A stretch of 32,754 bases of DNA. Origin: a virus. A program made the translations under genes and the position numbers. Below the pieces are notes generated by a model, which was given only the letters and a program-made list of their open reading frames with translations, was not told the DNA's origin and did not search any database. The stretch lies in IMG/VR virus record IMGVR_UViG_3300005933_000038, positions 1-32,754 of that record. One strand, 5' to 3'. Position 1 is the stretch's first letter; each line of letters opens with the position of its first letter. This document shows, in pieces, positions 1 through 31,014 of the stretch.

Positions 1-511
1 CAAGAAACGCGTCAATGGCCATCCCTGGGCGGTCCTCGGGTCCATCGCCCCCTGACCACTGGTAGTCATCAAAAGCCAGTATGCCCCAGGGTTTTAGGCA
101 CTCGTAGGCATTGACGGCATCTTTGAGAACTCCGTATGCTGTGTGGTCTCCGTCTATGTAAATGAAGTCAAATTTTTCTTGGTTATTTCTGAAGAAGTGG
201 TCACTGGTCAATTTCACTTTGATAATTTTTTTCTCGTTGCGTGCCACTAAAATTTTTGCGTCATAGACGCTTTCTACCGTCCCCCAGTCCAGAGCGTGAT
301 GAGCCACCTCATCAGACCCTTCCCACGTGTCTACGTCGACAAGTACCGAGTCAGTGCCCCTGAGCACGTTGTTGTACAGCCACACACTGGCGTCCCCGGT
401 GTAGGCGCCTATTTGGAGGGCACGTATATTTTTCCCACCATAGTCTGGAAGAACAATATTTTCAAAGTTCTCTTGGCCGTCTTTGGCAAACCAGTTGGGG
501 AGGGTACTCAT
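1..511 (-). CDS. Class I SAM-dependent methyltransferase (partial, N-terminal 170 residues)
   Basis: An open reading frame starts at ATG 511-509 and runs without a stop off the left edge, so the C-terminus is missing. The translation begins MSTLPNWFAK. It has a glycine-rich SAM-binding motif (LQIGAYTGDAS, residues 32-42), an acidic end to the next strand (VDVDTWEG, about 58-65), and the pair IYIDGDH (118-123) and LAFDDY (145-150). This layout matches the Methyltransf_24/TylF-like group, whose members act on small molecules or sugars rather than DNA bases. It is the last gene of the minus-strand fibre run, 45 bases after the preceding stop, with GGTAGG upstream as a modest ribosome-binding site. 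It could modify a glycan or surface compound during infection, but the substrate cannot be read from sequence. Confidence in the fold is high and in the role low. Confidence 0.85.
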   Translation of the reverse strand, partial: MSTLPNWFAKDGQENFENIVLPDYGGKNIRALQIGAYTGDASVWLYNNVLRGTDSVLVDVDTWEGSDEVAHHALDWGTVESVYDAKILVARNEKKIIKVKLTSDHFFRNNQEKFDFIYIDGDHTAYGVLKDAVNAYECLKPWGILAFDDYQWSGGDGPEDRPGMAIDAFL

Positions 512-556
512 TCCTTGAGCCTACCACAATGGGAGGGTGGTTTAGGGGCTAGTGCT

Positions 557-1921
557 CTAGCCAATAATGTTGATAGTGCCGACCATAGCTGAATGGTTTT
601 GGCACTGGTAGTACAAAGTGCTTGGGGCACCAGCATCTATCGTAAACTGAAGCCCACCCACGGCGACACCGTTGTTCGTAACGCCAGTGTTGTATACGTC
701 TCCCGAAGAGTAGCCCGCCCCAGTAGTCTGAATCCAAAATGGGTGCCCAGAAGCGTTTACAGTAAAGAAGTATGTGTTACCACGAACTAGGGTTAATGTG
801 GGATTATCGCTGCCGTCTATAACGTAGGCAGATGACCCGTTGTTAGTTACTTGAAAGTTCTCAATAACAGTAAGTCCGTCAGCCCCATCGGCTCCTGCAG
901 GACCAGTAACTGTGCTGTCCCCGCCAACGGGTCCTTCGGGTCCCTCGTCCCCCTGGGGACCAGTGGGTCCAGTAGGTCCAGTGACCGTACTATCGTCACC
1001 TGTTGGTCCTGTGACCGAGGGTCCAGTAGGTCCTGTGGGTCCAGTTGGCCCTGTTACTGTGCTGTCCCCCCCGGCAGGTCCGGCAGGTCCGGTAACTTCG
1101 GGACCAGTAGGACCAGTTGCCCCTGTGCCCCCGGTGGGGCCTGTAGGTCCACCGGACGGCCCTGTGGAGCCCGTTGGCCCCGTAACCTCGGGACCGGTAG
1201 CTCCAACTGCGCCTACTGCACCGGTTGGTCCGGTCGGGCCAACGGGTCCCTGGATTGGTCCAGCGTCAGCCCACTCTTCGTTTAGGCTCGACCAGATGTA
1301 CAGGTCCTCCTGAACAATGTAGCCGTCACCCACGTTCCCAACGGGATTGTCGGCTTCGAGAAATTCTAAAGCTGTATATGTTCCAAGGATGCTAATTCCG
1401 GAGCCGCCCGGACCTGTGGGTCCAGCGCCCCCTATGCCGCCAGTGGGTCCAGTAGGTCCAGTAGGTCCAAGCCCAATGTAGGCCAATTGTTCCCAGCCAC
1501 TGTTGTTTGTGTAGAAGTAAACCTCGCCGTTGCTGGGCTTTACCCATATGTTCCCAATCTCTGGGTACCCTGGCTGATTTTCTAGGTACGTGACAGTAGT
1601 AGTCCCAACAGTTTCGTAAAGCAAGTTCATAGAAAACGAGACACTATTTGTATTTGAAAGAACTGTAACTACATCATTTTCTTCAACAATAAATCTAAAT
1701 GTTTCGTAGGACTGTCCAGCCTTCACTAGCAGATTGTATGTCAAATAGATTCTGCTGTTTTCGGAAGATGTTCCTGCTGGCTGAATGTACACCGTTGTCT
1801 CGGCTTCATTCAAAGATTTGTTTGCAACAATCACAGAGGACACACCCGTAGTACCAACTGCGGGCAGCGCTGTGGGTGTGTTGGCTACCGGGTTAGCTAC
1901 ACCTACTCGGGTTACTGCCAT
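557..1921 (-). CDS. Collagen-like virion fibre protein with C-terminal cupredoxin-like domain
   Basis: This 454-residue protein has four parts. Residues 1-120 form a beta-rich domain clearly paralogous to the N-terminus of the next gene upstream (shared blocks such as YETFRF and SVSFS), probably the attachment end. A short linker module (about 126-165) and a GD-Y-V..LYIW module (about 178-225) flank Gly-Pro-Thr collagen tracts (about 150-178 and 226-345). Residues 347-454 resemble a cupredoxin. His393 lies in GHPFW, and Cys440, His443 and Met446 lie in [10 protein letters not shown], giving the C-x2-H-x2-M spacing of amicyanin-type blue copper proteins. There is no signal peptide, which fits a virion protein. 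AAGGAAG precedes the ATG at 1921. Being a tail fibre or tip protein is inferred from context; copper binding is inferred from the ligands. Confidence 0.9.
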
Positions 1922-1958
1922 GTTGTTATCGCTTCCTTAGCATCTATGGTGGGCATTA

Positions 1959-2897
1959 CTAGGCGGACAGACTTCTAATTTCCAGGGCGCCGGTCATTGC
2001 TGGGTGAACAGAGCAGATGTATCGCCAGGTTCCGGGGCTCGATATAGCAACTTCCCAAAAAAGTTTTCCGCTTGTTTTCCCCTGAGCTAAGCTCCCTGTG
2101 GACAAAGTGCCGTCATCCTCGACGTGGGTTAGCCCTGATGTGATGTTGGAGTACCCACCGCCAGTGTCGAGCTGTATCTGGAAAGGATGAGACTCAGAGA
2201 CGTTTGTGAGGTCAAAGCACAAGCTCGCCCCTGAGAGCGCGTAGATAGAGGGGTTGTCCCCTGTGTAGTGGCTGTTGAACTGGTATGCTCCGGAGCCGTT
2301 ATTTGACACGTCTAGTGTAGCAATTGCGTTGTAGGCGGGCCCTGCAGGTCCAGCAGGTCCTGTGGAACCGGAACCGGAACCGGAGCCTACGGGCTCCCAG
2401 GTGGTAGAAGTTCTAATTTCTAAGGCTTCGAATTCTGTGTTGTACCTGACGTACCCTTCTTCAGCATCGCCTCGGCGTTCACCAGTTGTGCCTTTGTCCA
2501 CATAGACAGTGTTGTTTATCCCACGAACTATCTTGTTTGTGAAAGTCTGCGCGAGGTCTCCTTGACCGACAGCGTCGTCCTGAAGAATTCCGTACAAGCT
2601 GAAAGAAACGCTATCGGTGCTGCTGCGGACAAAAACAGCGTCACCGGAGTTGACAGCAAATCTAAAAGTCTCAAAACTTACCCCGTAACCCACGGTCAAG
2701 TTGTCAGCAATGTAGACGTACGAGCCCTCGGTTGATGACCCTGACGGAGCCACGTACACCACGATTTTTGGAATCGGAGTGAGTGAGGGGGAAATGTTGG
2801 TGACGATTATGGATATCAGGTAGCTGTGCTGAAAGGTGTACAACCCTGTGCTTACGTTTGTAGCGGGCCGAACCGCAGCTAATCTTTGAATTGCCAT
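1959..2897 (-). CDS. Virion fibre protein with paralogous head and C-terminal cupredoxin-like domain
   Basis: The start is set at ATG 2897 and not the longer open frame from 2930. AGGAGGAG sits just upstream of 2897, and the resulting N-terminus (MAIQRL) lines up with MAVTRV of the neighbouring paralogue. The product has 312 residues. About 1-115 form the shared head domain. A middle segment contains VDKGTTGERRGD, and a glycine/serine linker with a very short Gly-Pro-Ala tract follows (about 175-190). The cupredoxin-like domain occupies about 195-312. Its candidate copper ligands are His237 (SHPFQ), Cys295, His298 and Met301 (YICSVHPAM), the same C-x2-H-x2-M spacing as in the paralogue. The stop of the giant gene upstream lies 11 bases before this start, so the two are probably co-translated. 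Virion role and metal binding are inferences. Confidence 0.9.
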   Translation of the reverse strand: MAIQRLAAVRPATNVSTGLYTFQHSYLISIIVTNISPSLTPIPKIVVYVAPSGSSTEGSYVYIADNLTVGYGVSFETFRFAVNSGDAVFVRSSTDSVSFSLYGILQDDAVGQGDLAQTFTNKIVRGINNTVYVDKGTTGERRGDAEEGYVRYNTEFEALEIRTSTTWEPVGSGSGSGSTGPAGPAGPAYNAIATLDVSNNGSGAYQFNSHYTGDNPSIYALSGASLCFDLTNVSESHPFQIQLDTGGGYSNITSGLTHVEDDGTLSTGSLAQGKTSGKLFWEVAISSPGTWRYICSVHPAMTGALEIRSLSA

Positions 2898-2908
2898 GGG
2901 TACTCCTC

Positions 2909-5900
2909 CTAAGCCTGTGCCTCGCCCCATGACAGTCTAGCGGAGCAGAGTGTCTCTTGACCTGTAAGACGTGCTACTGCAACGGTGAGAATGTCTGGGC
3001 CGTCTGGGAATACTGAGTCGCCGCCGAGAATAGAGTTTGACAGCTCAAACAAGTCACTCAAGTTGACGTTAGTTGCTTGCTCTTCCCCCTGGTTCCCAGA
3101 TGCTTTGAAGTTGTACACCTGGATTCCGCCGGAGATGGTGTCGTTTGATGTGTGCTCAACAACCTGGACCAGCGACGGCGTCTCCACACCTGTAAAGTTC
3201 AAGTTGTTGAGTCGAGAGTTCAGCAGAACCTTCACGTCGACCAGTTGGTTTGTTTGGACACCAACCTCCTGAAGCCGGAGCTGCATTCGGTTGATAATGT
3301 CTCGGTCGCCTAGCGCACCTGTAAGACCTTCAGAAACTGAGGGGCTCAGTCGGATAGAGATAAGAGGCTGATAGTTTGTACCAGAAGTGTTGTTTAGCGC
3401 ACCCACGGGGGAGATGGTGTAGCTGGACTGAGTGTTTCCACTATTTTCGAAGTCAATCACGTCTGAGAGAACGTAACCCGTGGCAGACACAGAGCTGATG
3501 CTTCTTGCGTAGCGGTACTGGTAGTACCTAAACGTGTTGGCATCTACTATCTGGCTCACTCGTGCTACCCCGGCAAATCCGAGATAGCTTGTAGTGCTCT
3601 CTGGAATACTGATAAGGACATAATCATCCACCGAGAGACCGTGAGAGCCACTTGTGTCTACAGTCACAAGATAGTTGCTCTTGCTGATGGTGGTAATATT
3701 GGTTGCGGTCTGGGTAGCTGCCTCGAGGGAGTTAGTCATAGCAATATTATTTGTGTCAATTGCCCTAACAAAATATATATTTTCATTAATAAGGTAGCTG
3801 TAGGGGTTGTACTCACTAATAAACCGCGTCCGAGGGTTTTGACTGTTAGACTGCGGCAGACCGTTGGTGCCTACACCCAGGAACTGAACCGAGTCCCCGC
3901 TGGCAAACCCGTGAGATGGGATGTTAATAATGTCAGTGTCCCTGTCAAGAGCGTTAGACCCGAAAGTTTTCGAGGTAGTGCCCCCGATTGACAGTGTCTG
4001 GCTGGACCTCGTGAACAGGTACGCCTTGTCGTCGTCAAATCGTCCATCCATGATGACCGAGGTACCCCAGTGAAACAGAGACGGAATGTAGGTCGGGTTA
4101 TCGAAGGTTGTTACTTCATAGCGGGCTGGCAAGTTACCAGAGCGGAAGTAGGACTCATAGAGTTCGTTGTTGTGTGTAAACTCGTGCGTGTACTGCACTT
4201 GTCCGCTAAGAGTCTTGAATCCAAAGCGGATTTTACCGGCACCGTACCAAGAGTAGTCCATGTAAATCATCTGGATTTTGGAAAGGTCAAGGTTGTACCC
4301 TGTGGGCCCAGTTCCATCAGAAGGGTCAAGGTTCCAGTCTTCTTGAGGAATTTTAGTGTCTACTGTCAGGGTCGCAATGATTCCAGTTTTGGCAGGAGTC
4401 AGTGAGTGGGAGGTTGTTGTGCCTATATTGGAGAGGTTTACAAAGTTGACTGCGTCTGGCAAAGCTTTCAATTTGAAAGTATTGCTCGTCAAAACAGTTA
4501 CATAGTACGTCCGCCCGTTGACCAGTCCGCCAATAGGCTCGCCGTCAATAGAGTTGTAGACGACCGGGATACTCTCGGTGAATCCGTGGCTCAGAATGGT
4601 GAACACGTCAGTGAGTGTTTCTACCGCGGTAGCAGGGTCAAAGATTTTTTCGGAGCCCGAGGACCCCTTGTACTCTGGCTTGATAGTGAGCCTAGAGTTC
4701 GATTCAATGCTGGCTACGCGATACGACTGTCCTCGCAACACGAGGTAGGAACCCACCTCAAGTTGTGTCATAAAGGCCGTGTTTGTGCCGAACACCCGCT
4801 CTGACCCGTTCAAGCACGCGAGTGTCCCCGCGGCTTGCTGGGTAGATGAGCGACGAACAGCGTAGAGTTTGTCCCCATCAAATTCGTAAAACATCCCGTT
4901 TTGGAAGTCGAACATACCTGCGCGAATGGCTCCGTTGCTCCACTCAGTCACGTGGAGTCTAGGGTATCCGTAGACCGTAGGCTCAACAATTTCTTGCTGA
5001 GCAATGACAGTAATGTTGAAGGAGTCAATAACTGTGACTTGGAATGTCCCATTGTATACAGGGTTGTCTACGCCAAACTGGTCTTTAGCGTCCTCGACCT
5101 GGATGGTCAAGCCATTGATAAGCCCGTGGACCCGCCTGGTACGTATCTGGATGACATTCGAGGACCCAACTCTGTACATTGTTTCGATGTCAATGCTGGG
5201 CTTGAAGTTGACAGCAGCCGAGGTCTGGATGCCCTTACCGGACTGGTACCTAAAGTACTTACGAGTCTGGCGCACAATCTGAGCAAATGACGTCCCCGTA
5301 CCAGTTGACATCTCAACACCGCCGTCAAAGGGGCGGTGAAGAGCGTACCCCTGTGGGCGCACGTAAACGAATGTTGGGTAGGAGTACGCAACATTCTCGT
5401 AGGCTGTGGTGTACGGGCGTGTTACGGTGATTTGGGTGTCCGAACCAATAGCTGCAATTTTACGAACAATGGGCGCCACAGGGACAACATGGTTCAAGAA
5501 AAGCTGACTTCCAGACCCAGCGGTCGCAAGGTCTACAGTGTTCAAGTTTCCCACAGCGTCGACACTTGTCGAGTGGAGTGTGACAAAGTTGCTGCTGCTG
5601 GTGACTACCGACCCCGTGGCCGAGACGTTCGTAATATTGGAGCCCTCTGAGTTGAACTCAAAAGTGGTTGCCGAGGGGACGGCAATGATGACGTGCTCGC
5701 CATTAAAGATTTCAGGACTGACTCCTGAGATATCCGCTATGGTAATAACGTTTCCAACCTGCAAGTCGTGGTCGGTGGTAGTAGTAATCCTTGCCACTTC
5801 ATTTGTCCGGTAGCGTGAGGTGATGCTCCGGGAAACGGCGTCCACTATTCTGCGTGTGTAGTAGTAGCTGTTGTCCACCAAGGGCGCGGGGGCAACGCCT

Positions 5901-8900
5901 ACCCCGCCTTCTTGAACGGCGAGAGCTCCTGGGTCCTGGTTCTCTACGGCAAGAGTAAAGCTCTCCGCGGCTGTATACCTAAACTCAAAAATTCCTGCAT
6001 TTACTGAGGTAATAGTAAACGTTCCCTCAAAATCCGGTGCAGAGGTGCTACTCAGACCCTCAATAGAGACTGTGTCCCCGACTAGGAAACCGTGAGTCTC
6101 ACTAGTTGTCATAATTCTGGTTGTGCCAGAGCTCTGGATTCGTGCGACTCCCAGCCTACGGCCACCGGAACCGGGATTGAAGACGACGGACTCACCGGTG
6201 ATGAAGGGGTGAGATGCAACGAGAATCTGGTTGGTAGCGGTGTCTACGTCTGAAGACTCAAAGTAGCCTTTGTCCGCTCTGTCTTGTGGGAACAAGCGGA
6301 ACGCGTCACCCACTTTGAGAATCTTGGAGAACGTAGTTCCTGTGCCATCAACAAGAACAGAATCTACTGTTGTTGCGACTGTTCCAGTCCCCGTGACCTG
6401 CCCACTAATCTGTGAAGAAGTGAAAGTGTGCTCTGCCCCTGCACCTGTAGTTGTGATAGTCAGCGGAACCCCCGAGGCAGCGTTTTCGGCTGTGGAGGCA
6501 AGCTTGATAAAGTCTTTGTTGACCGTAATAGCAAAGTAATACGTTGCATCTACCAGCCCGCCAAGAGTTGTCCCGCCGCCGTTAGAGTACACAATTTTTG
6601 TTCCGGTCAAAAGCCCGTGGGACGCTAGACTAATAATGTTCTGGTCCAGGTCTACTGAGAACTGGGGATTAAACGTTTTGACAATTGCTGGGACTGTCCC
6701 GTTAGCTGTAACCTCAAAAGTGGTTGCAGAGGGGACATCGCTGATTTCATACGTGCCATCAGGGGTGCGGATAAGGGACTTGAGGGTGTGTACCCCTGTG
6801 GGGACAGCATTGCTTAGCAAGTCAACAGCCACTCCGTTTTCGGAGTTGTTGAGCGTCGTAGCGAGCTTGAGTGTGTTTCCATCTATTGATATGACATAGT
6901 AGGGAGTAGCTGAAGTCAGACCACCCAGCGCAGTGCCACCGGCGGTGTCGTATTCTACAAGCTCGCCGCTGGAGAACCCGTGATTAGGGATTGTTATTGT
7001 GTCGACCACGTAGTCAATTGATTTATTGACAATCGAGTGGGCGCCCACTCCAACACCTTTAATGTCCGCAATTTCTGTGAACGAGGCGTCAGAAGACAAT
7101 CTAATAGTGTTGTTGTCTACTTTTTGGGTGTAGTAGGTTTGCCTGTTATTGAGTCCAGTGATTCCTGTGTCAGTCACAGCAAAACCATTGAAAGACTCTG
7201 TGGTAATTTCTACCAAGTCAGCGAGCCCGCCGGGGTTTGCTCTCCCTGTAATCGTGTCGTCTGCATCCAATCGGATGTTTCCTGTAAGGGGGGTAGGGGA
7301 GTCTGGGACATTCTGAAGAAGACATAGTCCTGTTACCACTGCAGCCGGAATAGTACCAACGTTGTTGTTGGGGTCTACAAACTGAAGGCGGTTAGCCGCG
7401 GGGATGCCCGTGACAATGTGAGTTCCATTGAAGCTCTCAAAGTCGGACCCGGTCATGTTGCTGATAGTCACGGTGTTGCCGACTTCGAGATTGTGTGTCG
7501 TGTTTAAGGTGACATCGCAAAGGAAGGAGCTACGGTTTCTGTTCACGACACCAAAGCTTGTTACGTTAGCCACGGTGGGCCGTGTCACAGTAAAGTTGTT
7601 GCTGTCAATGTACCCGCTGACAACATACTGCCCCTCAAAGACAGTGTCGTTTCCCCCAGATATAGTGCTAGCAGTCATAGTCATACCAGGGACAAACCCG
7701 TGCTCAAATTCCGTGGTGTAGAGAGCGACGTTGTGGGATAGAAGCTGCCTGTTGACCAAAGCATAGTCGAAGTAGGGCACGTTTATAGCACGAATTTGGT
7801 GGCTTGCGTACACGAGACCGTTGATGTTTTGCTGGGCTATCGACGTAGAGTTCGCAGTTATGTACTCAATTTGGTTGGCGCCAGGTGTGCCAGTAATTGT
7901 GATAAAGCCCTCGAACTCAAGTGGGTCATCACCGGTCACCTGTGTGATTCTCAGCTTCTCGCCGACCTCCATGTTGTGGGTGCCGTCCAGCTGCATAGTT
8001 ACGACATTGGCATCACGTCGTCTCCATGTAATTCCAATACTGTAAACAGTGTCCAAGAAGTACGCACGGCGCACCCTGCCTATTTGGGTGGAAGTCTCAT
8101 TGAAAGCTACCGTGAGACTTACCCCTGTGTCTACATCGTAGTAGAACTCGTTGGGCCCATTCGTCCCGGCGACAATCCAGTCACCGACAAACTCAGCTGT
8201 GCTTGATGGGGTGCCATCATTGAATTCGGTAATACGGACACGAAAGTTGGTCCCCAACCGGTGCGGGTTGTCCGTCCGAACATAGCGACGTGCACCTGCC
8301 GAAGAGCGGTCGACAATGTTGGTCTCAGCCGAATAAAGACTGTCGGACCCATCGGTGAAGTCCCGCATCTGGAACCAGGCGTCTCCGCCGTCGCTCCAGC
8401 CGTGGGGCTCTGTGAAGTTTAGGTACATGTCGTTGCTACCAGTCAGCCGGATGCTCTCAACTTCGTTGGTGACAGAGTCATCAAGTTCCGAGTAGAACTC
8501 GTCCGCATCAATAATCTCACTTACACGGAACTCACGATTGAATACGTTGCGGAACCTATTCTCCATGCTGATAACGCTCACACGGTCGCCGAGCTCCACG
8601 TCATTTGTTGTGCCAAGGTTTAGGTAGACCCTGGTGCGCTTAGTAAGCCCTCTAGAGTCAACGTAGTGGCTTCTCTTGGAGACGTACCCCGTGGCCTGCT
8701 CCTGGGACTGGGTGTGGCTTGCAAAGTTGTTCCTGAATCGAAGTCTTGTACTCGCCCCACTCAGACCAGTTTCAATGTTGTCGATACGTGCAATTGGCTT
8801 CACTGATGAGCTGGTCCCAACTATAGCTGGGTCCTCTGTGTAGAAGGAGTCAAAAGGAAGTTGTAAGTTGTCATCCTTCTCAAACTCACCGTTCTGCGTC

Positions 8901-11590
8901 CCAGCGGTCCAGTAGAGGCCGTACTCGTCGACTCCCGAGCTGGTTCCACCTGGATTCCAAGATGAGTCCGCCACAAACCACTCGCCATTGAAGTACTCTC
9001 CGTAGGGCGCGGGGATTCCCTCGACCTTAATTGCGTACCCCACGTCATGGTAGTGGGGGCGGTCGAAGTAAAGTCCACGAGTTGTGCCGTTGCTGTAGAG
9101 CCCTCTGATTTTGACAGACCGGTCCCCAAGGAAGTACTCGTAGTCGAGGTCACGGATGTAGGCGGCTCCCTCAGGGGCTGGTCCATCAGCCTGAGTAAAA
9201 TTTTCTTCCGAAGTGAAAGAGAACTCGTTGGCTGACTGGATACCAGTAATTCTCCAAAAACCATTCCACCGGCGGTCATCGTTCACCGTGTCGGAAGGCA
9301 GGCCAGAAACAGTGACAAACATGTTGGTCAGCAGGTCGTGGTCTTGTGCCGTGGTCATGTATCTGGTTGTTCCAGAGCTTCGGTAGTTTGTAATCTCAAC
9401 AATGGGGAATGCGGCTGCGGTGTCAGGACGCTGCACCTGGTCCAGAGAAATAAATTGGTTGACCTCAAAACTGCCGTTTGTGACCGTGTCAATATATTTG
9501 TACACACCGCTCGCGTACAGGGCACGAATTTCAAAGTCCCGGGATTTAGCGTACTGGACTGTTTGCCCCGTGACAAACCCATGGCTAGGGATGTAAATGC
9601 TGTCTTCTAGTTCGTTGACAACAGTAAAGATAAAGCTGTGGACAGTGCCCTGACCCAAAGAAGTCAGGTTCAACTCGGGCCCGCCCAGGGACTGACTCAG
9701 AGTAAATGTGTTAGCATCTACAACCTCTTTGATGTAGTACGTTGCGTTATCTTGGAGAGGGGTAACTTCATCTTGCTCGTTTGTCCGGTACCTCACAGGC
9801 TGGTTCGCCAAGAACCCATGGTTGGGGATTGTGAACCTGTTTGTCTCCAAGTTGACAACAACTTTTCGGAACCCTTCAGATGTTGCACCCGAGGGGGCCG
9901 TGATATTGATGGTAGTGAAAGAGGGTCCTGGGGTCGTGCTAAGCCCAAAGGTGTAGTCGTCAAGTACAGTGACGTAGTAGGCAGTGTTTGCAGCTAAGGT
10001 AGCCACAGGAGTTTCGGAGAAGAAGTAGTTGATAGCTTCACCATCAAAAAACCCGTGGGGCTCCGTGAAGTGAAACTTGTTGTTGTGCGTGTCTACAGTA
10101 ATAGGAACTAAAGCGTGAGTAGAAGTTCCGGCTGCGGCAACCGCAATAGAATTGATTTCGTTGACAGCGTCTTCTGGGCTGCCGTACAGCTCAAATCCAA
10201 AGACTGAGGACTCGACCAAAACAACGTCGACAGACCCTTCAGCATCTGGTTCATTCCAAGTTGTGGTTGTGATGGGTCGACCCAACAACTGCGTGGACCC
10301 ATTGTAAGTCCCCTCAGACGTGGCTACATTGAGAGCTGTTGTGACAACCCATGAGCCCCCACCGCCGCTCCAGAAACGAGAAGAGCGGTTGTTCGGTGCG
10401 CCTCCGCCGTAACCTCCAGCGCCTCCTGCTCCGCCCCATGCCTGTCCGTCAGAACCTCCACCGCCGCCGAAACCTCCGGACCCTGACGAAGTGCCCGCTG
10501 GGTACCCTCCAATCCCTCCTTGAAGGAACCCTTGGCCACCGCCACCGCGCTCTGAGTCGCCACCGTTGGAGTAAAACCCCCCACCGGCACCTCCCGAGGA
10601 GCGCCCTATGGCGCCCTGTCCTTCGAGTCCACCGGTGTACCCGACCTGGGATGTTCCACCTTCGGCGGTGGTCTCACCATTACCACGGTCCGCACCTCTG
10701 GCGGTGGTGGAGAAGACAGAGGAAGACCCACCTCCGGCAACAAACAGGGGGACGTTACCGTTTTTGCGGGCAACAAATGTCCCACCGGAGGACGCGGGGT
10801 AGGCCGTGCCGTTCGGGGCGAACTCCCCAACTTGTCCACACAGAATAGTAATAACTTCGCCCTTAGTAAGGCGTACTTCACCAATAATTCGTGCGCCCAG
10901 ACCCGCCTGAGCGTTTCCTTGGCGTCCAGAAGCGCCTCTAACATCAAATCGGTAGACTCCGTCTACGGGAACTGTCCAGTCCTGGTACCCCTGGAAGTCA
11001 CCCTGGGAGATATAAGTGGTCGCCCAGCTTGCCCCCCCAGCAACATATTCGTCACGAAGAGCAGTGATTGTGGGTCCGTATCGCCCAGTAGCTCCACCTG
11101 TAGTGAATGTCTGTGTTTCAAAGTTGTAGAGGCTACTGCCACCTAAACCGTCCAGAAGGTTTCGGACAAAGTAAACATCTCCGGATGTGAGCCCGGTGAG
11201 GGGGGTCTCATTTGTGAGATACTTCACTGCCTGTTGGTCAGCGTACTTGACAGATGAGATATTGAATTCGTTATTGTACACCGCTGGAAAGTTGAGTGTT
11301 ATGCGACCATCTGAAAAGTTGATGAGGTCGAGACTGGCACCCCCGGCTGTCTCGGCAAATCCTACGGCAAACCCATCTGTGTTGACAAAGTAAATTTCTT
11401 CGCTTGTGACTCCGAGAATGTCCCCGGTTTCTTCGCGGAACACCCAGGCGCTCTCATCTGTGACGTCAGATGGGAGAGTTGTGGCGAGGGTGCGCCCAGG
11501 GAAGTACACATAACTGTCCTCGAGGTTGACGTTAGTCTTCCTGAGGGAGTGTGTACCTGCACCACCTGCAGCAGTGATATTTAATGCCAT
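2909..11590 (-). CDS. Giant virion structural/adhesion protein (2893 residues) with about twenty HGF-type repeats
   Basis: The N-terminal 190 residues precede a domain at about 195-415 that resembles the Gly_rich/ALK-LTK ligand-binding type domain (Pfam Gly_rich). It begins with W-x-VP..G.Y, continues through LTKGEVITILCGQ, and ends in dense GGGG tracts. From about 500 to 2600 there are roughly twenty beta repeats, each with an HGF/HNL/HDL-x-x-G core followed by a YYV...NTF.L strand pair. The last 175 residues (RDIINRMQLRLQE ... PDGPDILTV ... SWGEAQA) resemble a C-terminal domain I associate with marine phage structural proteins. AAGGAG lies 9 bases before ATG 11590. The protein is likely a long tail or baseplate fibre. 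No enzymatic motif is visible. Its large size and repetition make misassembly possible, but the frame is intact throughout. Confidence 0.93.
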   Translation of the reverse strand: MALNITAAGGAGTHSLRKTNVNLEDSYVYFPGRTLATTLPSDVTDESAWVFREETGDILGVTSEEIYFVNTDGFAVGFAETAGGASLDLINFSDGRITLNFPAVYNNEFNISSVKYADQQAVKYLTNETPLTGLTSGDVYFVRNLLDGLGGSSLYNFETQTFTTGGATGRYGPTITALRDEYVAGGASWATTYISQGDFQGYQDWTVPVDGVYRFDVRGASGRQGNAQAGLGARIIGEVRLTKGEVITILCGQVGEFAPNGTAYPASSGGTFVARKNGNVPLFVAGGGSSSVFSTTARGADRGNGETTAEGGTSQVGYTGGLEGQGAIGRSSGGAGGGFYSNGGDSERGGGGQGFLQGGIGGYPAGTSSGSGGFGGGGGSDGQAWGGAGGAGGYGGGAPNNRSSRFWSGGGGSWVVTTALNVATSEGTYNGSTQLLGRPITTTTWNEPDAEGSVDVVLVESSVFGFELYGSPEDAVNEINSIAVAAAGTSTHALVPITVDTHNNKFHFTEPHGFFDGEAINYFFSETPVATLAANTAYYVTVLDDYTFGLSTTPGPSFTTINITAPSGATSEGFRKVVVNLETNRFTIPNHGFLANQPVRYRTNEQDEVTPLQDNATYYIKEVVDANTFTLSQSLGGPELNLTSLGQGTVHSFIFTVVNELEDSIYIPSHGFVTGQTVQYAKSRDFEIRALYASGVYKYIDTVTNGSFEVNQFISLDQVQRPDTAAAFPIVEITNYRSSGTTRYMTTAQDHDLLTNMFVTVSGLPSDTVNDDRRWNGFWRITGIQSANEFSFTSEENFTQADGPAPEGAAYIRDLDYEYFLGDRSVKIRGLYSNGTTRGLYFDRPHYHDVGYAIKVEGIPAPYGEYFNGEWFVADSSWNPGGTSSGVDEYGLYWTAGTQNGEFEKDDNLQLPFDSFYTEDPAIVGTSSSVKPIARIDNIETGLSGASTRLRFRNNFASHTQSQEQATGYVSKRSHYVDSRGLTKRTRVYLNLGTTNDVELGDRVSVISMENRFRNVFNREFRVSEIIDADEFYSELDDSVTNEVESIRLTGSNDMYLNFTEPHGWSDGGDAWFQMRDFTDGSDSLYSAETNIVDRSSAGARRYVRTDNPHRLGTNFRVRITEFNDGTPSSTAEFVGDWIVAGTNGPNEFYYDVDTGVSLTVAFNETSTQIGRVRRAYFLDTVYSIGITWRRRDANVVTMQLDGTHNMEVGEKLRITQVTGDDPLEFEGFITITGTPGANQIEYITANSTSIAQQNINGLVYASHQIRAINVPYFDYALVNRQLLSHNVALYTTEFEHGFVPGMTMTASTISGGNDTVFEGQYVVSGYIDSNNFTVTRPTVANVTSFGVVNRNRSSFLCDVTLNTTHNLEVGNTVTISNMTGSDFESFNGTHIVTGIPAANRLQFVDPNNNVGTIPAAVVTGLCLLQNVPDSPTPLTGNIRLDADDTITGRANPGGLADLVEITTESFNGFAVTDTGITGLNNRQTYYTQKVDNNTIRLSSDASFTEIADIKGVGVGAHSIVNKSIDYVVDTITIPNHGFSSGELVEYDTAGGTALGGLTSATPYYVISIDGNTLKLATTLNNSENGVAVDLLSNAVPTGVHTLKSLIRTPDGTYEISDVPSATTFEVTANGTVPAIVKTFNPQFSVDLDQNIISLASHGLLTGTKIVYSNGGGTTLGGLVDATYYFAITVNKDFIKLASTAENAASGVPLTITTTGAGAEHTFTSSQISGQVTGTGTVATTVDSVLVDGTGTTFSKILKVGDAFRLFPQDRADKGYFESSDVDTATNQILVASHPFITGESVVFNPGSGGRRLGVARIQSSGTTRIMTTSETHGFLVGDTVSIEGLSSTSAPDFEGTFTITSVNAGIFEFRYTAAESFTLAVENQDPGALAVQEGGVGVAPAPLVDNSYYYTRRIVDAVSRSITSRYRTNEVARITTTTDHDLQVGNVITIADISGVSPEIFNGEHVIIAVPSATTFEFNSEGSNITNVSATGSVVTSSSNFVTLHSTSVDAVGNLNTVDLATAGSGSQLFLNHVVPVAPIVRKIAAIGSDTQITVTRPYTTAYENVAYSYPTFVYVRPQGYALHRPFDGGVEMSTGTGTSFAQIVRQTRKYFRYQSGKGIQTSAAVNFKPSIDIETMYRVGSSNVIQIRTRRVHGLINGLTIQVEDAKDQFGVDNPVYNGTFQVTVIDSFNITVIAQQEIVEPTVYGYPRLHVTEWSNGAIRAGMFDFQNGMFYEFDGDKLYAVRRSSTQQAAGTLACLNGSERVFGTNTAFMTQLEVGSYLVLRGQSYRVASIESNSRLTIKPEYKGSSGSEKIFDPATAVETLTDVFTILSHGFTESIPVVYNSIDGEPIGGLVNGRTYYVTVLTSNTFKLKALPDAVNFVNLSNIGTTTSHSLTPAKTGIIATLTVDTKIPQEDWNLDPSDGTGPTGYNLDLSKIQMIYMDYSWYGAGKIRFGFKTLSGQVQYTHEFTHNNELYESYFRSGNLPARYEVTTFDNPTYIPSLFHWGTSVIMDGRFDDDKAYLFTRSSQTLSIGGTTSKTFGSNALDRDTDIINIPSHGFASGDSVQFLGVGTNGLPQSNSQNPRTRFISEYNPYSYLINENIYFVRAIDTNNIAMTNSLEAATQTATNITTISKSNYLVTVDTSGSHGLSVDDYVLISIPESTTSYLGFAGVARVSQIVDANTFRYYQYRYARSISSVSATGYVLSDVIDFENSGNTQSSYTISPVGALNNTSGTNYQPLISIRLSPSVSEGLTGALGDRDIINRMQLRLQEVGVQTNQLVDVKVLLNSRLNNLNFTGVETPSLVQVVEHTSNDTISGGIQVYNFKASGNQGEEQATNVNLSDLFELSNSILGGDSVFPDGPDILTVAVARLTGQETLCSARLSWGEAQA
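3780..10090 (-). repeat. Array of about twenty HGF-type beta repeats
   Basis: Within the 2893-residue gene, units with an HGF/HGL/HNL/HDL-x-x-G core, a short strand such as LVEY or VQYA, and a YYV...NTF.L strand pair recur from about residue 500 to 2600. The units have diverged in sequence and vary in spacing (roughly 45 to 110 residues), so this is an old expansion and not a recent tandem duplication. Related but fewer units occur in the 822-residue gene (for example around 12640-12900). Confidence 0.8.
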
Positions 11591-11639
11591 TTAGCGAGGC
11601 TCCTTATGGGTTAGTTCTATTTACAGTTTACAACAATAA

Positions 11640-14108
11640 TTAGCGGACGAATACCGCTAAGCCAGTGAAAAGACGGTCATTTGTGGCGCCAGTGTCATAG
11701 CTACTGCCCCAGAAGTGACCCCCGGTTCTGAAGTTATAGTTCGAAGTATAGTTAAATCCAATACCTCCACCGAAGCGACCACTAGTGTTCGTGGTCCCGC
11801 CCATACCAATCATCGACGCGCCGTGCCCAGTAACGTTACCCGAGCCGACAGGGTCGTACCCACCGGTCATGTAGCTGTCCAGGCTCCCGTAGTTGTTAGC
11901 ACGGTCCGAGAGCATTTTGAATCCGAAAACAGTGGGTGTTTGTGCCTGGTTTGTTCTTACCCCTGGGAAAGTCTCCAGACGGAGATTAAGAGCGTATTCC
12001 AATTGCTGGACATCAGGGAATAGCCACTGGTCCGCGTAGGTGGAGAGGTTTGTCCCACCGGTGACGGCACGCATGTTCGCAATCTGAGCGTTGTGCTTCC
12101 AGCCAACACGTTTTTGCGTGTCATTGATAGAAACAAGCATGACATCGTTGAAAGGCAGCTTGTAGAACAGCTTGGAGAAGGAGTCAATATCACTGAAATC
12201 TGAGTTGGCAGAGTCCGTGAAAAGTGTGTCAAATGATGCGTCATCGTCCCATGCCCAGCCGTCCCAGATAGCACTGAATGTGAACCCAGCACCGGACTGA
12301 GGTGCCGTACCGTTTCGCCCGAGGTAGTTGTCAAGCAAGGTGTTTGTAGATAGTTTCATCATCTGAGTCCAGCCACCACCCTCAGTGGTCATGTCACAGT
12401 AGGTAAGGTGGGCCGTGGCCGTGCCTTCTGGCTTAATCCAGTATGAGCCACTGGTAGAAGCGGGGTTAAGATTGAGGATTTCTTGTCCGCTTGCAGCCGC
12501 ACGTATTTCAGTGCTCCCATCAAGGGTAAATCCACCGGATGTTGTGAGCTTAATGTGTATTCCGTCGGGGTATACATTCTGAATGAAGTAGTAATTTTTC
12601 GCTGCCTCAGAAGTTGTGAGGGCTCCGCCTACTGGAAAGGCGTACTCCACCATGTCTGCTTCTTCAAAGTCGTGCCCAGAGACGGAGATAATATCACGGT
12701 CTAAAGAGACAGAGATGGCTTGCAAAGTTTGGGTGCCACTGCCACCAGAAATGGAGGTCAAAGTTGCCCCATCAGGCTCAGAAGCTACGTTGATGACACT
12801 GGCGGAGGGGTTTGCAGCAGTAACCCAGTACGTGGTGTTATTGGTTAGCCCTACTGCAGCTGCACCCGTGGCATTGTAAAACACCATTTGACCAATTTCC
12901 CAGTTGCTGTTCCCATTTAGAGCTATATTGCCAAGCCCTGTAATGCTGGTAACTGTGTAAGTCGCACCCTCCGAATTGTCACCATCGAACTCGTACACAG
13001 CACCTCGAGTAACATCGAGAGAAATCTCAGCTGTGGGGTCGCTGTTGTTCCCCGCAAAGAAGGCCACTAGGTCGGCGTGCTGAAAACTTCCCACAATGTT
13101 TGACACAATGGCGATAGGTGTGCCACCAGGAATTTCGCTGACCTGAAAGGTAGACAAAGAAGCGCCGAGAGCGCCCACTGAAGCCAAGAATACAACACCT
13201 CGTGGGTTGCTATTGAAGTGCCCCGTAGCAGAAACTACGTCGTAGTATAGAGGAGAGCCGAGGGAGAGAGAAGTAAAATCAACCCCGCTGTGGCTAACCG
13301 TAATGGTGTCCTGTTCCGTGTCAACACTGACAACGGGGCTACCCACGGAGCTGAGCGGGAGGCTCGCTACACGGTTTGTGAAGTCATAATTGGTCGACAG
13401 AAGAGTGTTAGATGGGTCAAATGTCCGGGCTGTGGCACTGTTGCCTGAGTCAAAAGATTTTGAAGCTGTGTTTGTGGAATCAAATTCTTGTGAAATAGTG
13501 GAGTTAAGATTCAAGAAATAGAACGGGGTGCGCACGCCAAATCCATGGGGGCTGTCAGTTTTGACAGTCAAGGTAGATGGAGTGAGTCCGTCAGTCACCA
13601 GGCCATCAGAGTCTGAGATACGAATTTGAGAGCCCTGAAAGAACTCACCGGTCACGATTGAGGTGTAAAGGTCCTCGATTGAGGAGGTAAAAAACTGATT
13701 CTCTTTTGCCAAATATGTGAAAGAAACGGGGGTAGGAACTGAATTAATGATGTACGCACCATCTGCGGTAACAGACTTTGAGCCCGTGACATTGATGGGG
13801 ATTCCAACAGAAAGAGCGTGGTCGAGCCCTGTTGTCACCGTAACTTCTCTAGAACCCTGAATTGTGTTGATAGACAAAATGTTGGGGATTGTCGTGTCAC
13901 CGGATTTTGAAAAGAACGAAGGGGTGTTATTGATAAGCTCAAGGGTTTCCCACTTGGTAGGCTGGAGCCCGTACTCGAAGTCGGTGTCAATAAGGTTCTC
14001 GGGATTGGATACCCGAAGCTTAGTTACCGGGTCAATAAACTCTTTGGGGAACGAAATTTCGCCCCCGGTGCCGCCGGAGCCGCCGGAGCCGCCAAGAAAA
14101 CCAGGCAT
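11640..14108 (-). CDS. Virion adhesion protein with C-terminal fibrinogen-like domain
   Basis: This 822-residue protein starts with a glycine-rich tip (MPGFLGGSGGSGGTGG) and has a central region (about 60-540) of beta repeats related to those of the giant neighbour, for example a GQMVFYN..G..GLTNNTTYWV block. Residues about 545-822 begin with SGSYWIKP, YCDMTTEGGGWT and then a long aromatic- and glycine-rich tail ending FTGLAVFVR. The YCDM...GGGWT pair is the signature opening of fibrinogen C-terminal-like domains, which bind acetylated sugars in animal ficolins and occur in some phage and bacterial proteins. Recognition of host surface glycans is therefore a reasonable inference. AGAAGGA precedes ATG 14108, and the next gene starts 50 bases beyond its stop. 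No reverse transcriptase or template repeat is visible, so nothing suggests targeted hypermutation. Confidence 0.92.
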   Translation of the reverse strand: MPGFLGGSGGSGGTGGEISFPKEFIDPVTKLRVSNPENLIDTDFEYGLQPTKWETLELINNTPSFFSKSGDTTIPNILSINTIQGSREVTVTTGLDHALSVGIPINVTGSKSVTADGAYIINSVPTPVSFTYLAKENQFFTSSIEDLYTSIVTGEFFQGSQIRISDSDGLVTDGLTPSTLTVKTDSPHGFGVRTPFYFLNLNSTISQEFDSTNTASKSFDSGNSATARTFDPSNTLLSTNYDFTNRVASLPLSSVGSPVVSVDTEQDTITVSHSGVDFTSLSLGSPLYYDVVSATGHFNSNPRGVVFLASVGALGASLSTFQVSEIPGGTPIAIVSNIVGSFQHADLVAFFAGNNSDPTAEISLDVTRGAVYEFDGDNSEGATYTVTSITGLGNIALNGNSNWEIGQMVFYNATGAAAVGLTNNTTYWVTAANPSASVINVASEPDGATLTSISGGSGTQTLQAISVSLDRDIISVSGHDFEEADMVEYAFPVGGALTTSEAAKNYYFIQNVYPDGIHIKLTTSGGFTLDGSTEIRAAASGQEILNLNPASTSGSYWIKPEGTATAHLTYCDMTTEGGGWTQMMKLSTNTLLDNYLGRNGTAPQSGAGFTFSAIWDGWAWDDDASFDTLFTDSANSDFSDIDSFSKLFYKLPFNDVMLVSINDTQKRVGWKHNAQIANMRAVTGGTNLSTYADQWLFPDVQQLEYALNLRLETFPGVRTNQAQTPTVFGFKMLSDRANNYGSLDSYMTGGYDPVGSGNVTGHGASMIGMGGTTNTSGRFGGGIGFNYTSNYNFRTGGHFWGSSYDTGATNDRLFTGLAVFVR

Positions 14109-14172
14109 TAAATAGTCCTTCTCTCACTCAACTTATGTACTGAATACAGAATACCAGATGATACCCGCACTG

Positions 14173-14823
14173 TTATACGCCCAACCACCAAGAAGTGGAC
14201 ACAGCAAAGGTGCTTTGCACTCCTCTGGGGCCAGATGGTCCGGTCTGCCCGCCCTGTGTTTCTACATATACTCCGTTAAAGAATACATATGTTTTTGCAG
14301 TACCTGTGTCAAACCAAGTGTCACCGTTTACAGAAGTGTTAATGTCCGGCTCCGAGGGGCTGGCAACAAACTTACCGGCTGGCCCCGTGGGTCCCAGGGG
14401 ACCAGCTACTGTGGATGCGGGACCTATCACTCCTGTTGGTCCGGTCTGGCCTCGAGGTCCAGTAGGTCCTTGTGGCCCTGTGACGTAGGAGTCCGCACCT
14501 GTCGGGCCAAGAACTCCCTGGTCACCGGGGACACCCTGAAGCCCCTGGGTCCCCGTGGGACCCAAAGGTCCTGTGGGACCGGTTAGCCCCTGGGGACCAG
14601 CTACATCGGAAACAGGTCCAGTGGGTCCTTGAATTCCCTGAGAGCCCGTTGACCCAACTGCACCCGTAGGTCCAGATGCGCCCTGAATACCTTGGTCACC
14701 TACGGGGCCTGTGGGTGCGACCCGAACAGCCTCCCAAGCAACGCCAGTCCACTTCCAACTTTGGCCGTTAACTGTGAAAACTTCATCCAACACAGCGGGG
14801 TCTGGAAAATCAATTGCTGCCAC
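14173..14823 (-). CDS. Short collagen-like fibre protein (216 residues)
   Basis: The protein opens with an AIDFP...W.WTG.AW module (residues 1-37) shared with the genes at 15964-17865 and 17875-18582, which marks a common anchoring domain. Gly-Pro-Thr-type triplets fill about 38-150. The protein ends with one D-WF-x5-YVFFNGVYVE module (about 152-190) and a short tail finishing SWWLGV. The start is GTG at 14823, chosen because AAAGGAG sits 9 bases upstream and the AIDFP block follows directly. The gene lies between the 55-residue ORF and the fibrinogen-like gene in the same minus-strand run. It is probably a thin trimeric rod on the tail or capsid. It lacks the globular tip seen in its paralogues, so it may be a truncated family member. 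Confidence 0.9.
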   Translation of the reverse strand: MAAIDFPDPAVLDEVFTVNGQSWKWTGVAWEAVRVAPTGPVGDQGIQGASGPTGAVGSTGSQGIQGPTGPVSDVAGPQGLTGPTGPLGPTGTQGLQGVPGDQGVLGPTGADSYVTGPQGPTGPRGQTGPTGVIGPASTVAGPLGPTGPAGKFVASPSEPDINTSVNGDTWFDTGTAKTYVFFNGVYVETQGGQTGPSGPRGVQSTFAVSTSWWLGV

Positions 14824-14872
14824 GGCGGGGTCTCCTTTCTAAGCTTCTACTTATAGTCTACTTTACTATTAA

Positions 14873-15040
14873 TTACCCAATATAGGGTTCTTGGGCCCCT
14901 AAGTTTTTTACGTGTACATACTCTTCCGCCCAGTCAATTGCTGCATTCAAAGATTCCCAAGGACCAGACACGTCAAAAACATTTTCTCCGTGCAAAATTT
15001 CTACTAAAGGTCCCTCAAGAATTATTTTGTATGTAAACAT
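14873..15040 (-). CDS. Small acidic ORF of 55 residues, unknown function
   Basis: An ATG at 15040 opens a 56-codon frame that begins MFTYKIILEG and stops at TAA 14873-14875. It starts only 4 bases after the stop of the beta-propeller gene and fills most of an otherwise empty 221-base gap, which suggests translational coupling. The ribosome-binding site is weak (CTAGAAAA). The composition looks coding, with an amphipathic WESLNAAIDWAEEYV segment in the middle. I do not recognise a family. Alternatively the gap is non-coding and the frame is open by chance. Confidence 0.55.
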   Translation of the reverse strand: MFTYKIILEGPLVEILHGENVFDVSGPWESLNAAIDWAEEYVHVKNLGAQEPYIG

Positions 15041-15044
15041 TTTT

Positions 15045-15962
15045 CTAGGCCGAGTAAGCTATCTTCCCGTTATTGCCAACTGCGATACTGACGTTGCTGT
15101 CAAAAAGTACATCGTTTATAGTGTCTAGGTCAAACCCGGAAGCCCTCTGTGTCCAACTCTCTGGGACAGTCGCGGTCCCAATTTTTCCGCCAGAGCCTAC
15201 AGCAACATAGCTGTCACTGTTTGCCGCGACAGAGTTCACAATAGAGGCTCCAAAAGAGCTACTGGGGAATATCTGGGTCCAGTTTACCCCGTTGGGGGAA
15301 GTTGCTATCGCTCCCGCGTCACCCACGGCAATATATTCTGAAAGGTTTGGTTTAGCTGTGACACCGAAAATGCTTCCATTGACAAATGACGAAGCTCGCT
15401 GGGTCCAAGTGGTGCCATTTGTTGAGGTTGCTAGTTTTCCGTCGTATCCCACTGCAATAGAGATACCCGCCGACGAGTACACATCATTTATGAAAGTTGC
15501 CCCAAACGACGAAGAACGCAACACCCATGCAATCGCGTCTACTGACGTTGCTAGTTTCCCTGAACCACCTACAGCAATCCAAAGAGATGCCACCGGTGAC
15601 CATGAAATCCCCAAGATAGGGCTTGCACCGAAACCTGAATTGCGTTGTGTCCAGCTCACTCCGTCGAGGGACGTAGCTAACTTCCCTGTGCTCCCCCCAA
15701 TGACGAAAATTCCGTCTCCGTGCGCAGCGGAGAAAATGTTTGTTCCCCCGAAGCCAGTGTCAACAGCTGACCAAGAAAACCCTCTATCTGTTGAGATTGC
15801 AGCTTTCCCAACGCTACCGACAGCAAGGTGTGTTTCAGAGTTGTCACCAACAACGGAGTTCACATTTGATGTCCCAAATGTTGAATCTGCGGTCAACTGC
15901 CACCCAGCTGCGATGAAAGGCGCTGGGAGTGTGGCAAAGGCGGCATGGGAAGCAATAAGCAT
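15045..15962 (-). CDS. Seven-bladed beta-propeller protein (YCF48/BNR-like repeats)
   Basis: The 305-residue product contains seven consecutive units of about 40 residues. Each has the pattern F..-x-I..V..-x-IAVG-x-GK-x-ATS-x-G-x-WTQR-x-S. The seventh unit stops after GKIAYSA without its final strand, while the N-terminus (GWQLTADST, about 20-28) supplies a matching strand. This is the arrangement expected for a closed propeller with a velcro seal. The repeats resemble the YCF48/sialidase-like Asp-box family; no sialidase catalytic set is evident. In a virion it would be a compact binding head. Start ATG 15962 lies 1 base after the stop of the collagen-like gene upstream, so the two are probably co-translated. 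The first 20 residues are hydrophobic (MLIASHAAFATLPAPF) but not a convincing signal peptide. Confidence 0.9.
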   Translation of the reverse strand: MLIASHAAFATLPAPFIAAGWQLTADSTFGTSNVNSVVGDNSETHLAVGSVGKAAISTDRGFSWSAVDTGFGGTNIFSAAHGDGIFVIGGSTGKLATSLDGVSWTQRNSGFGASPILGISWSPVASLWIAVGGSGKLATSVDAIAWVLRSSSFGATFINDVYSSAGISIAVGYDGKLATSTNGTTWTQRASSFVNGSIFGVTAKPNLSEYIAVGDAGAIATSPNGVNWTQIFPSSSFGASIVNSVAANSDSYVAVGSGGKIGTATVPESWTQRASGFDLDTINDVLFDSNVSIAVGNNGKIAYSA

Positions 15963-15963
15963 C

Positions 15964-30348: not shown

Positions 30349-31014
30349 CTACAGTTGGCTGGCAGAAAGTGCCATAAAAACATGGCGAACAGTGGATGGA
30401 TACCACTCTTTCCCGCCGTTTGTTGTGGGCACTCCGTCGCTGTTGAGGGACTTAGCAATCTCTCCGTATGAAACCCCAGCATGACGTGACGCAAAGATGA
30501 ATGTCTTGTAGCCCTCATCTAGCGCCGACTTAGGCCCAAGATCAACACCCCACACTTTACCTTGAGTTCTCCGGTCCTCGTGGACCTCCTTCTGCCGAGC
30601 AGAAATCATGCCGCGCTCCATCTCTGCCATAGCAGACATGATGGTAACCACAAAGCGCCCGTTAGCAGTAGTGGTGTCGAGCCCCAGGTCGAGCATGACC
30701 AGTCGCCAGCCATACTGATTGGAGCGGTCTATGATGCTCAGGAAGTCCCGGGTGGAGCGAGCCAGTCGGTCTAGCCTTGTCACGTAGAGGGCTTGAGCTT
30801 TCCCGGCGTCTAGGTCCTCTAGGGCCTGCCTAAGAATCGGACGACCCTTGATGCTTTTACCTGAGCGCCCCTCTTCCCGAAGGAGCTCAGCTGTGTACCC
30901 AGAGCCGCTGGCCGAGGCGATGAGCTGGCGCTCTTGGGCGCCGAGGCTCATGCCGTCATCCACTTGCATCTGGGTAGACACTCGTGCGTAGCAATACGCT
31001 ACCCCCGAGCTCAT
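30349..31014 (-). CDS. Short serine recombinase (resolvase/invertase type)
   Basis: The 221-residue product carries the resolvase catalytic domain (about 5-145). The nucleophile is Ser13 in YARVST, Arg80 lies in TRLDRLARS, and the long dimer helix includes EMERGMISAR (131-140). A C-terminal helix-turn-helix portion (SYGEIAKSLNSDGVP..., about 182-215) resembles the start of the Recombinase domain of large serine integrases, but the protein ends there without the zinc ribbon and coiled coil. It is therefore more likely a resolvase or invertase than an integrase. It could resolve genome multimers or switch a DNA segment. Its ATG overlaps the stop of the upstream membrane gene (ATGA, 31011-31014), so translation is probably coupled. 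No attachment or crossover site pair was identified in the window. Confidence 0.93.
   Translation of the reverse strand: MSSGVAYCYARVSTQMQVDDGMSLGAQERQLIASASGSGYTAELLREEGRSGKSIKGRPILRQALEDLDAGKAQALYVTRLDRLARSTRDFLSIIDRSNQYGWRLVMLDLGLDTTTANGRFVVTIMSAMAEMERGMISARQKEVHEDRRTQGKVWGVDLGPKSALDEGYKTFIFASRHAGVSYGEIAKSLNSDGVPTTNGGKEWYPSTVRHVFMALSASQL

Follow-up and report, generated by a model that had tools for sequence, protein, structure and literature searches.

The fibre gene and its neighbourhood

The window, the whole stretch of DNA analysed here, is identical with a virus record of 32,754 bases. An 822-residue protein encoded on its minus strand comprises a conserved stalk and a C-terminal head (Table 1). 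The ORF adjoins that of a giant protein of 2,893 residues (2909-11590); neighbouring proteins match Pfam Collagen above the cut-off (15964-17865 and 14173-14823), and terminase and primase genes are located farther along the window. No close DNA relatives of window positions 1-20000 were found in the phage collection. Among named phages, Actinomycetia phage DSL-LC01 (Dishui Lake, China) is the nearest relative; its gene order around the protein is similar, and its counterpart (WJZ48559.1, annotated 'hypothetical protein') is 62.8% identical over the full length. An Actinomycetia host was predicted for DSL-LC01 by the authors of its genome (PMC10611076). The window phage is taken to be tailed; judged by this relative, its host probably belongs to the freshwater Actinomycetia. 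A 221-residue ORF at 30349-31014 contains a resolvase domain (PF00239, E 2.8e-35) and possibly encodes a serine recombinase.

Table 1. Features of the fibre ORF and their positions in the window
Feature	Residues	Positions	Strand	Basis
Fibre protein, whole ORF	1-822	11640..14108	minus	ATG, 822 aa + stop
Conserved stalk	1-525	12534..14108	minus	60 IMG/VR loci; identity drop at 520-530
N-terminal part	24-192	13533..14039	minus	phrog_5838, E 4.3e-21; tblastn to S-PM2, S-RSM4, ctQRb9
Stalk segment	411-524	12537..12878	minus	resembles a stretch of the giant protein 2909-11590
Exchangeable head, fibrinogen-like, predicted intelectin-like	530-822	11643..12521	minus	profiles, models, relatives' heads 53-81%
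Fibrinogen-like opening with YCDM...GGGWT	540-585	12354..12491	minus	NF040941 and PF00147 over cut-offs

The N-terminal part is common to virion structural proteins of the cyanophages S-PM2 and S-RSM4; according to the S-RSM4 annotation, a nearby protein, not this one, resembles an S-PM2 protein detected by mass spectrometry. Podovirus ctQRb9 encodes the N-terminal part in a gene flanked by a tail fibre gene on one side and lysis genes on the other, with two small ORFs intervening. This part likely attaches the protein to the virion. The PHROG category of its family, phrog_5838, is 'head and packaging', which counts against a firm assignment of its position on the virion. The resemblance of the distal stalk segment to the giant protein amounts to 27.8% identity in tblastn; the E value of 6e-4 refers to a small local locus database.

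The original prediction put a fibrinogen-like domain at the tip of a phage adhesin, and such a domain does form the C-terminus of the fibre protein; the prediction also surmised at least four head types on the virion, which is borne out in part. The giant neighbour does contain a stretch of 44% glycine (10355-10690), but near its N-terminus and not at its end. The proposed cupredoxin head is weakly supported by the C-terminal part of protein 1959-2930, which bears a faint likeness to copper nitrite reductase (E 0.011) and matches phrog_677, baseplate wedge tail fiber protein connector. For the proposed propeller protein (15045-15962), neither Pfam nor a sequence search of the PDB gave any match at E values up to 1; it weakly matches a PHROG of unknown function, and the DSL-LC01 gene at the same place is annotated 'photosynthesis system II assembly factor'.

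A fibrinogen-like opening on exchangeable heads

SGSYWIKP and TYCDMTTEGGGWT are present in the ORF at the predicted positions. The NCBIfam model NF040941 (GGGWT_bact) matches residues 540-581 with E 2.6e-15 and 56.2 bits against a cut-off of 30, and Pfam PF00147 (Fibrinogen_C) matches residues 548-585 with E 1.8e-5 and 25.1 bits against a gathering score of 22. Both matches stop near residue 585 and cover about 40 residues, in PF00147 only profile positions 11-48 of 221 and not most of the profile. A single-sequence phmmer search of the PDB gave fibrinogen beta (6.2e-4) and intelectin-1 (7.9e-4) as best matches. As judged from these profiles, residues ~530-822 begin with a true fibrinogen-like segment, and the presence of a fibrinogen-like domain is confirmed. 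The predicted start at residue 545 located the domain correctly, but its true start lies somewhat earlier, with the exchange boundary near residues 525-530. The head's opening thus shares the fibrinogen-like YCDxxxxGGGW domain of NF040941 well above the curated cut-off; the model has 46 positions, and the remaining ~240 residues of the head fall outside it.

Databases (UniProt, PHROGs) already name fibrinogen-like domains in phages, and one paper counts a 'fibrinogen-like coiled coil protein' with the genes by which marine phages recognise their hosts (PMC3909814). Searching viral contigs for the pattern YCDM-x3-GGGWT retrieved 81 stretches. Among 72 distinct ORF ends with the motif, drawn from this and related searches and including two window-type heads, the stop codon is in view in 61, and in all 61 phage ORFs the motif begins 149-253 residues before it. 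Fibrinogen-like ends are therefore recurrent in environmental phage proteins.

Heads of several kinds are mounted on the stalk of the window protein. With its first 489 residues as query, 60 IMG/VR loci were found, which reduce to 43 distinct ORFs after removal of one locus lacking an ORF (L089), two cut by the contig end (L068 and L082) and 14 identical copies. These ORFs carry 15 fibrinogen-like heads, one look-alike and 27 glycine-rich heads, defined by at least 35 Gly per 100 residues and including one that is cut at a contig end (L063). Thirteen of the fibrinogen-like heads are of the window type and two of a second type (L052 and L064); the latter helped build the scoring profile, yet both are confirmed by NF040941 above its cut-off. 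The look-alike (L076) was assigned by eye and from a 19% alignment to another head; at E values up to 0.1 it is matched by neither Pfam nor NCBIfam. Six of the 27 glycine-rich heads were scanned against Pfam: four match the Ig-like He_PIG above the cut-off, one matches Gly_rich_2 and one matches nothing. In related phages this stalk bears glycine-rich heads in place of the fibrinogen-like one; a glycine-rich stretch occurs in the 2,893-residue neighbour as well.

Between the window protein and phages without its head type, identity is 0.30 at residues 501-520 and drops to 0.16 at residues 521-540. In the stalk tree, rows with the window-type head group as a single clade (support 100/99); those with the second and third fibrinogen-like types are placed among glycine-rich rows. 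The tree requires three head changes, the minimum possible for four labels; the second type comprises two rows (support 82/82), the third is a single row, and one glycine-rich row (L071) is long-branched. Because the same stalk bears other heads, and given these tree positions, the head is a module, one that is stably inherited in the lineage of the window phage. The protein thus has the layout of a modular fibre, with a constant N-terminal part and exchanged C-terminal heads. Hypervariability of the head was not found: unlike many receptor-binding tips, it does not exceed the outer stalk in variability, mean identity being 0.64 in the head and 0.60 in the outer stalk (residues 241-520). The most variable stretches comprise head residues 66-80, 183-194 and 269-281.

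Predicted fold of the head and its likeness to intelectins

Window-type heads were collected from 20 IMG/VR contigs (53-81% identity; 16 aligned) and from L095. More distant heads, 32-36% identical, are the two of the second type, found via the stalk, and that of L113; the L113 head is 32-34% identical to that of the window and is encoded on a virus contig of 115 kb. A profile of 18 heads searched against the PDB matched the intelectin XEEL (3.8e-7), intelectin-1 (6.2e-7) and fibrinogen beta (3.5e-6). In hhalign, the head profile aligned with three vertebrate intelectins at E 5e-8 over head residues 11-164, and with ten intelectin-type sequences (these three and seven from genomes of the phylum of a Myxococcales MAG) at E 3.2e-13 over head residues 11-166. 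A sequence proof of intelectin identity after the motif failed with both sets: for the part after the motif, shuffled columns scored as high in 56 of 60 trials with three sequences and in 37 of 80 with ten, so that this signal is not significant. For the last third alone the counts were 59 of 60 with three intelectins and 1 of 80 with ten, the latter on seven aligned columns at the LAVFVR end. Since the signal without the opening is no better than that of shuffles, homology is shown by sequence for the opening, and the intelectin-like shape of the remainder is a prediction. Among 50,697 phage records searched with human intelectin-1, the DSL-LC01 counterpart gave the lowest E value (0.005, query residues 1-135), and no record matched over 80% of the query length.

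We obtained two AlphaFold2 models of the head, both of modest confidence, one from 17 sequences (model 1; mean pLDDT 52, pTM 0.60) and one from 18, three of them distant (model 2; mean pLDDT 66, pTM 0.76). The models have 14 sequences in common and are not fully independent. Confidence is lowest at head residues ~203-285, the expected location of the intelectin sugar site. In a Foldseek search of the PDB with model 2, intelectin-family chains take the first six places (E 3.4e-7 to 2.2e-5), at TM-scores of only 0.38-0.49. VIA-align, in which Z scores below 8 may reflect a common arrangement only, placed five intelectin-family chains above that level for model 2, at Z 11.2-12.2 with 212-224 aligned residues (6usc_A: Z 12.2, 214 residues, rmsd 3.8), followed by other fibrinogen-like domains at 8.0 and lower values. 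Model 1 repeats this ranking, with intelectins at Z 11.2-12.1 as against 7.7 for the next family; its best intelectin match has Z 12.1, 210 aligned residues and an rmsd of 3.8. The original prediction had made a profile or structural match beyond the YCDM-GGGWT segment decisive. No sequence profile provides it convincingly, whereas the comparison of predicted structures does: the models suggest a match over nearly the whole domain, with the intelectins (X-type lectins) as nearest solved folds, at low model confidence in head residues 203-285.

The likeness to human intelectin-1, XEEL and lamprey LSSL thus extends over nearly the whole head in predicted fold and over its first ~155 residues in profile alignment; the C-terminal third, in contrast, is not confidently alignable, and the head is part of a phage fibre. 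Eight cysteines are conserved in vertebrate intelectins (PMC9682848). The window head has one cysteine and so does not show this set. Since this feature is missing and the C-terminal homology comes without a reliable alignment, the head is filed as a member of NF040941 and not with the intelectins. The paired cysteines of the animal Fibrinogen_C domain are likewise not found: there is one cysteine in the head and none in two of the 18 aligned heads.

Calcium mediates the binding of exocyclic vicinal diols by intelectin-1, in which W288 and Y297 form an aromatic box (PMC12800186), and acidic residues coordinate calcium in lamprey LSSL (PMC9682848). For comparison with the intelectin site residues E274, W288, Y297 and H263, D735, H762, Y787 and W800 were placed by eye via the predicted strand order, in a region that has no reliable alignment. 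The same letter occurs at these positions in 15, 11, 13 and 8 of 15 window-type heads, respectively, and D735 in all 18 heads. These four residues could form an intelectin-like calcium/sugar site and provide a lead. DSL-LC01 carries a gene for UDP-galactopyranose mutase (discussed in PMC10611076), and a link to galactofuranose would be an attractive fit to an intelectin ligand. This gene sets DSL-LC01 apart from the window phage: no match was found in the other 31 records searched. We do not use the link as evidence because the mutase occurs in one of 32 records only, many of which are fragments.

Three cyanophage fibrinogen-like proteins rank 1, 4 and 3 among structural matches in a viral library (P-HM2 E3SSV2, P-SSM4 Q58LR8 and S-ShM2 E3SJT6, respectively). 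At 301-358 residues they are too short to contain the stalk of the window protein, and their sequence identity is 13-24%. An intelectin-like fold is less expected in a phage than the fibrinogen-like domain already annotated there, since a 2022 paper denies phages the intelectin domain. The present models suggest that this phage lineage at least has more of the domain than was thought. No description of an intelectin-like phage head was found in the titles and abstract openings of the literature matches listed. That a true intelectin-type lectin serves as the host-recognition head of phages, probably of freshwater bacteria, is possible but less likely than not.

Receptor binding and alternative functions

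We consider it reasonably probable that 11640-14108 encodes a virion fibre with an exchangeable tip of fibrinogen/intelectin fold, most likely a glycan lectin that binds the receptor. This reading builds on the observed opening, head exchange and C-terminal place, and on a predicted intelectin-like fold for the remainder; attachment to the virion, a glycan as ligand, the role towards the host and any use of calcium are inferred. The first ~525 residues would fix the fibre to the virion and form the stalk, and the last ~293 residues would be a separate globular head with a fibrinogen/intelectin fold. Exchanged as a module among phages with the same stalk, this head would fasten the phage to a host-surface glycan as a receptor-binding lectin.

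The head may instead bind a host surface protein and use its fold for protein contacts as angiopoietins and tenascins do. The fibrinogen-like domains of ANGPTL2, angiopoietin and tenascin are among the next structural matches (Z 7.2-8.0), and the calcium residues of intelectins are not placeable with certainty in the head. Intelectin-family chains, which are known sugar lectins, score ~4 Z higher in both models, however, and we regard a protein receptor as unlikely. Acetyl groups as the ligand of an ordinary ficolin-like domain, as originally proposed, would agree with the presence of ficolins, FIBCD1 and tachylectin 5A among the structural matches, but only at Z 7-8. Both models are closer to the intelectins by ~4 Z, which argues against kinship with the acetyl-binding ficolin/tachylectin type. 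Because intelectin folds rank above other fibrinogen-like domains, ficolin-style binding of acetylated sugars is not the best analogy. Animal fibrinogen domains carry disulphides from paired cysteines, which cannot form in a head with a single cysteine. We therefore think this proposal very improbable.

A sugar-binding head need not select the host. A fibre on capsid, collar or tail that served for decoration or particle adhesion, by attaching to glycans in the environment, would be in line with the 'head and packaging' category of the N-terminal family and with the collagen-like proteins in the neighbourhood; in cyanophage S-CAM4, a fibrinogen-like gene adjoins a 'minor coat protein' gene near head-tail connector genes. 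The position of the N-terminal part in ctQRb9, close to a tail fibre gene, speaks against such a role. Receptor-binding fibres usually follow the pattern seen here, a constant stalk with exchanged heads, and this argues in the same direction, which makes a decoration fibre rather improbable.

If a receptor-binding lectin of intelectin type is correct, a fold of vertebrate innate immunity would have functional relatives both on virions and in bacteria, and animals would recognise microbes with a lectin of the type by which phages select their hosts. The head is a concrete, expressible phage domain with which the origin of the intelectin fold can be tested, as can the question of whether the microbial sugars recognised by phages are also those recognised by animal immunity. 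A stalk that bears either fibrinogen/intelectin-type or glycine-rich heads also helps to predict receptor-binding tips in uncultivated phages.

Outside phages, the head profile, applied to the genome collection in a pattern-led scan, matched a single Myxococcales MAG (head residues 5-62), and a search of plasmids gave two Pseudomonas records, matched in the opening only. Human intelectin-1 matches 110 of 282 genomes from the phylum of this MAG at E <=0.001, mostly in the opening. Four of these 282 genomes have proteins 33-36% identical to it over much of the query, and three further genomes encode intelectin-type proteins 44-46% identical over the query's length. In the phylum of the Myxococcales MAG, bacterial ORFs of ~740 residues (L205, L206 and L207) end in a domain with this 44-46% identity to human intelectin-1.
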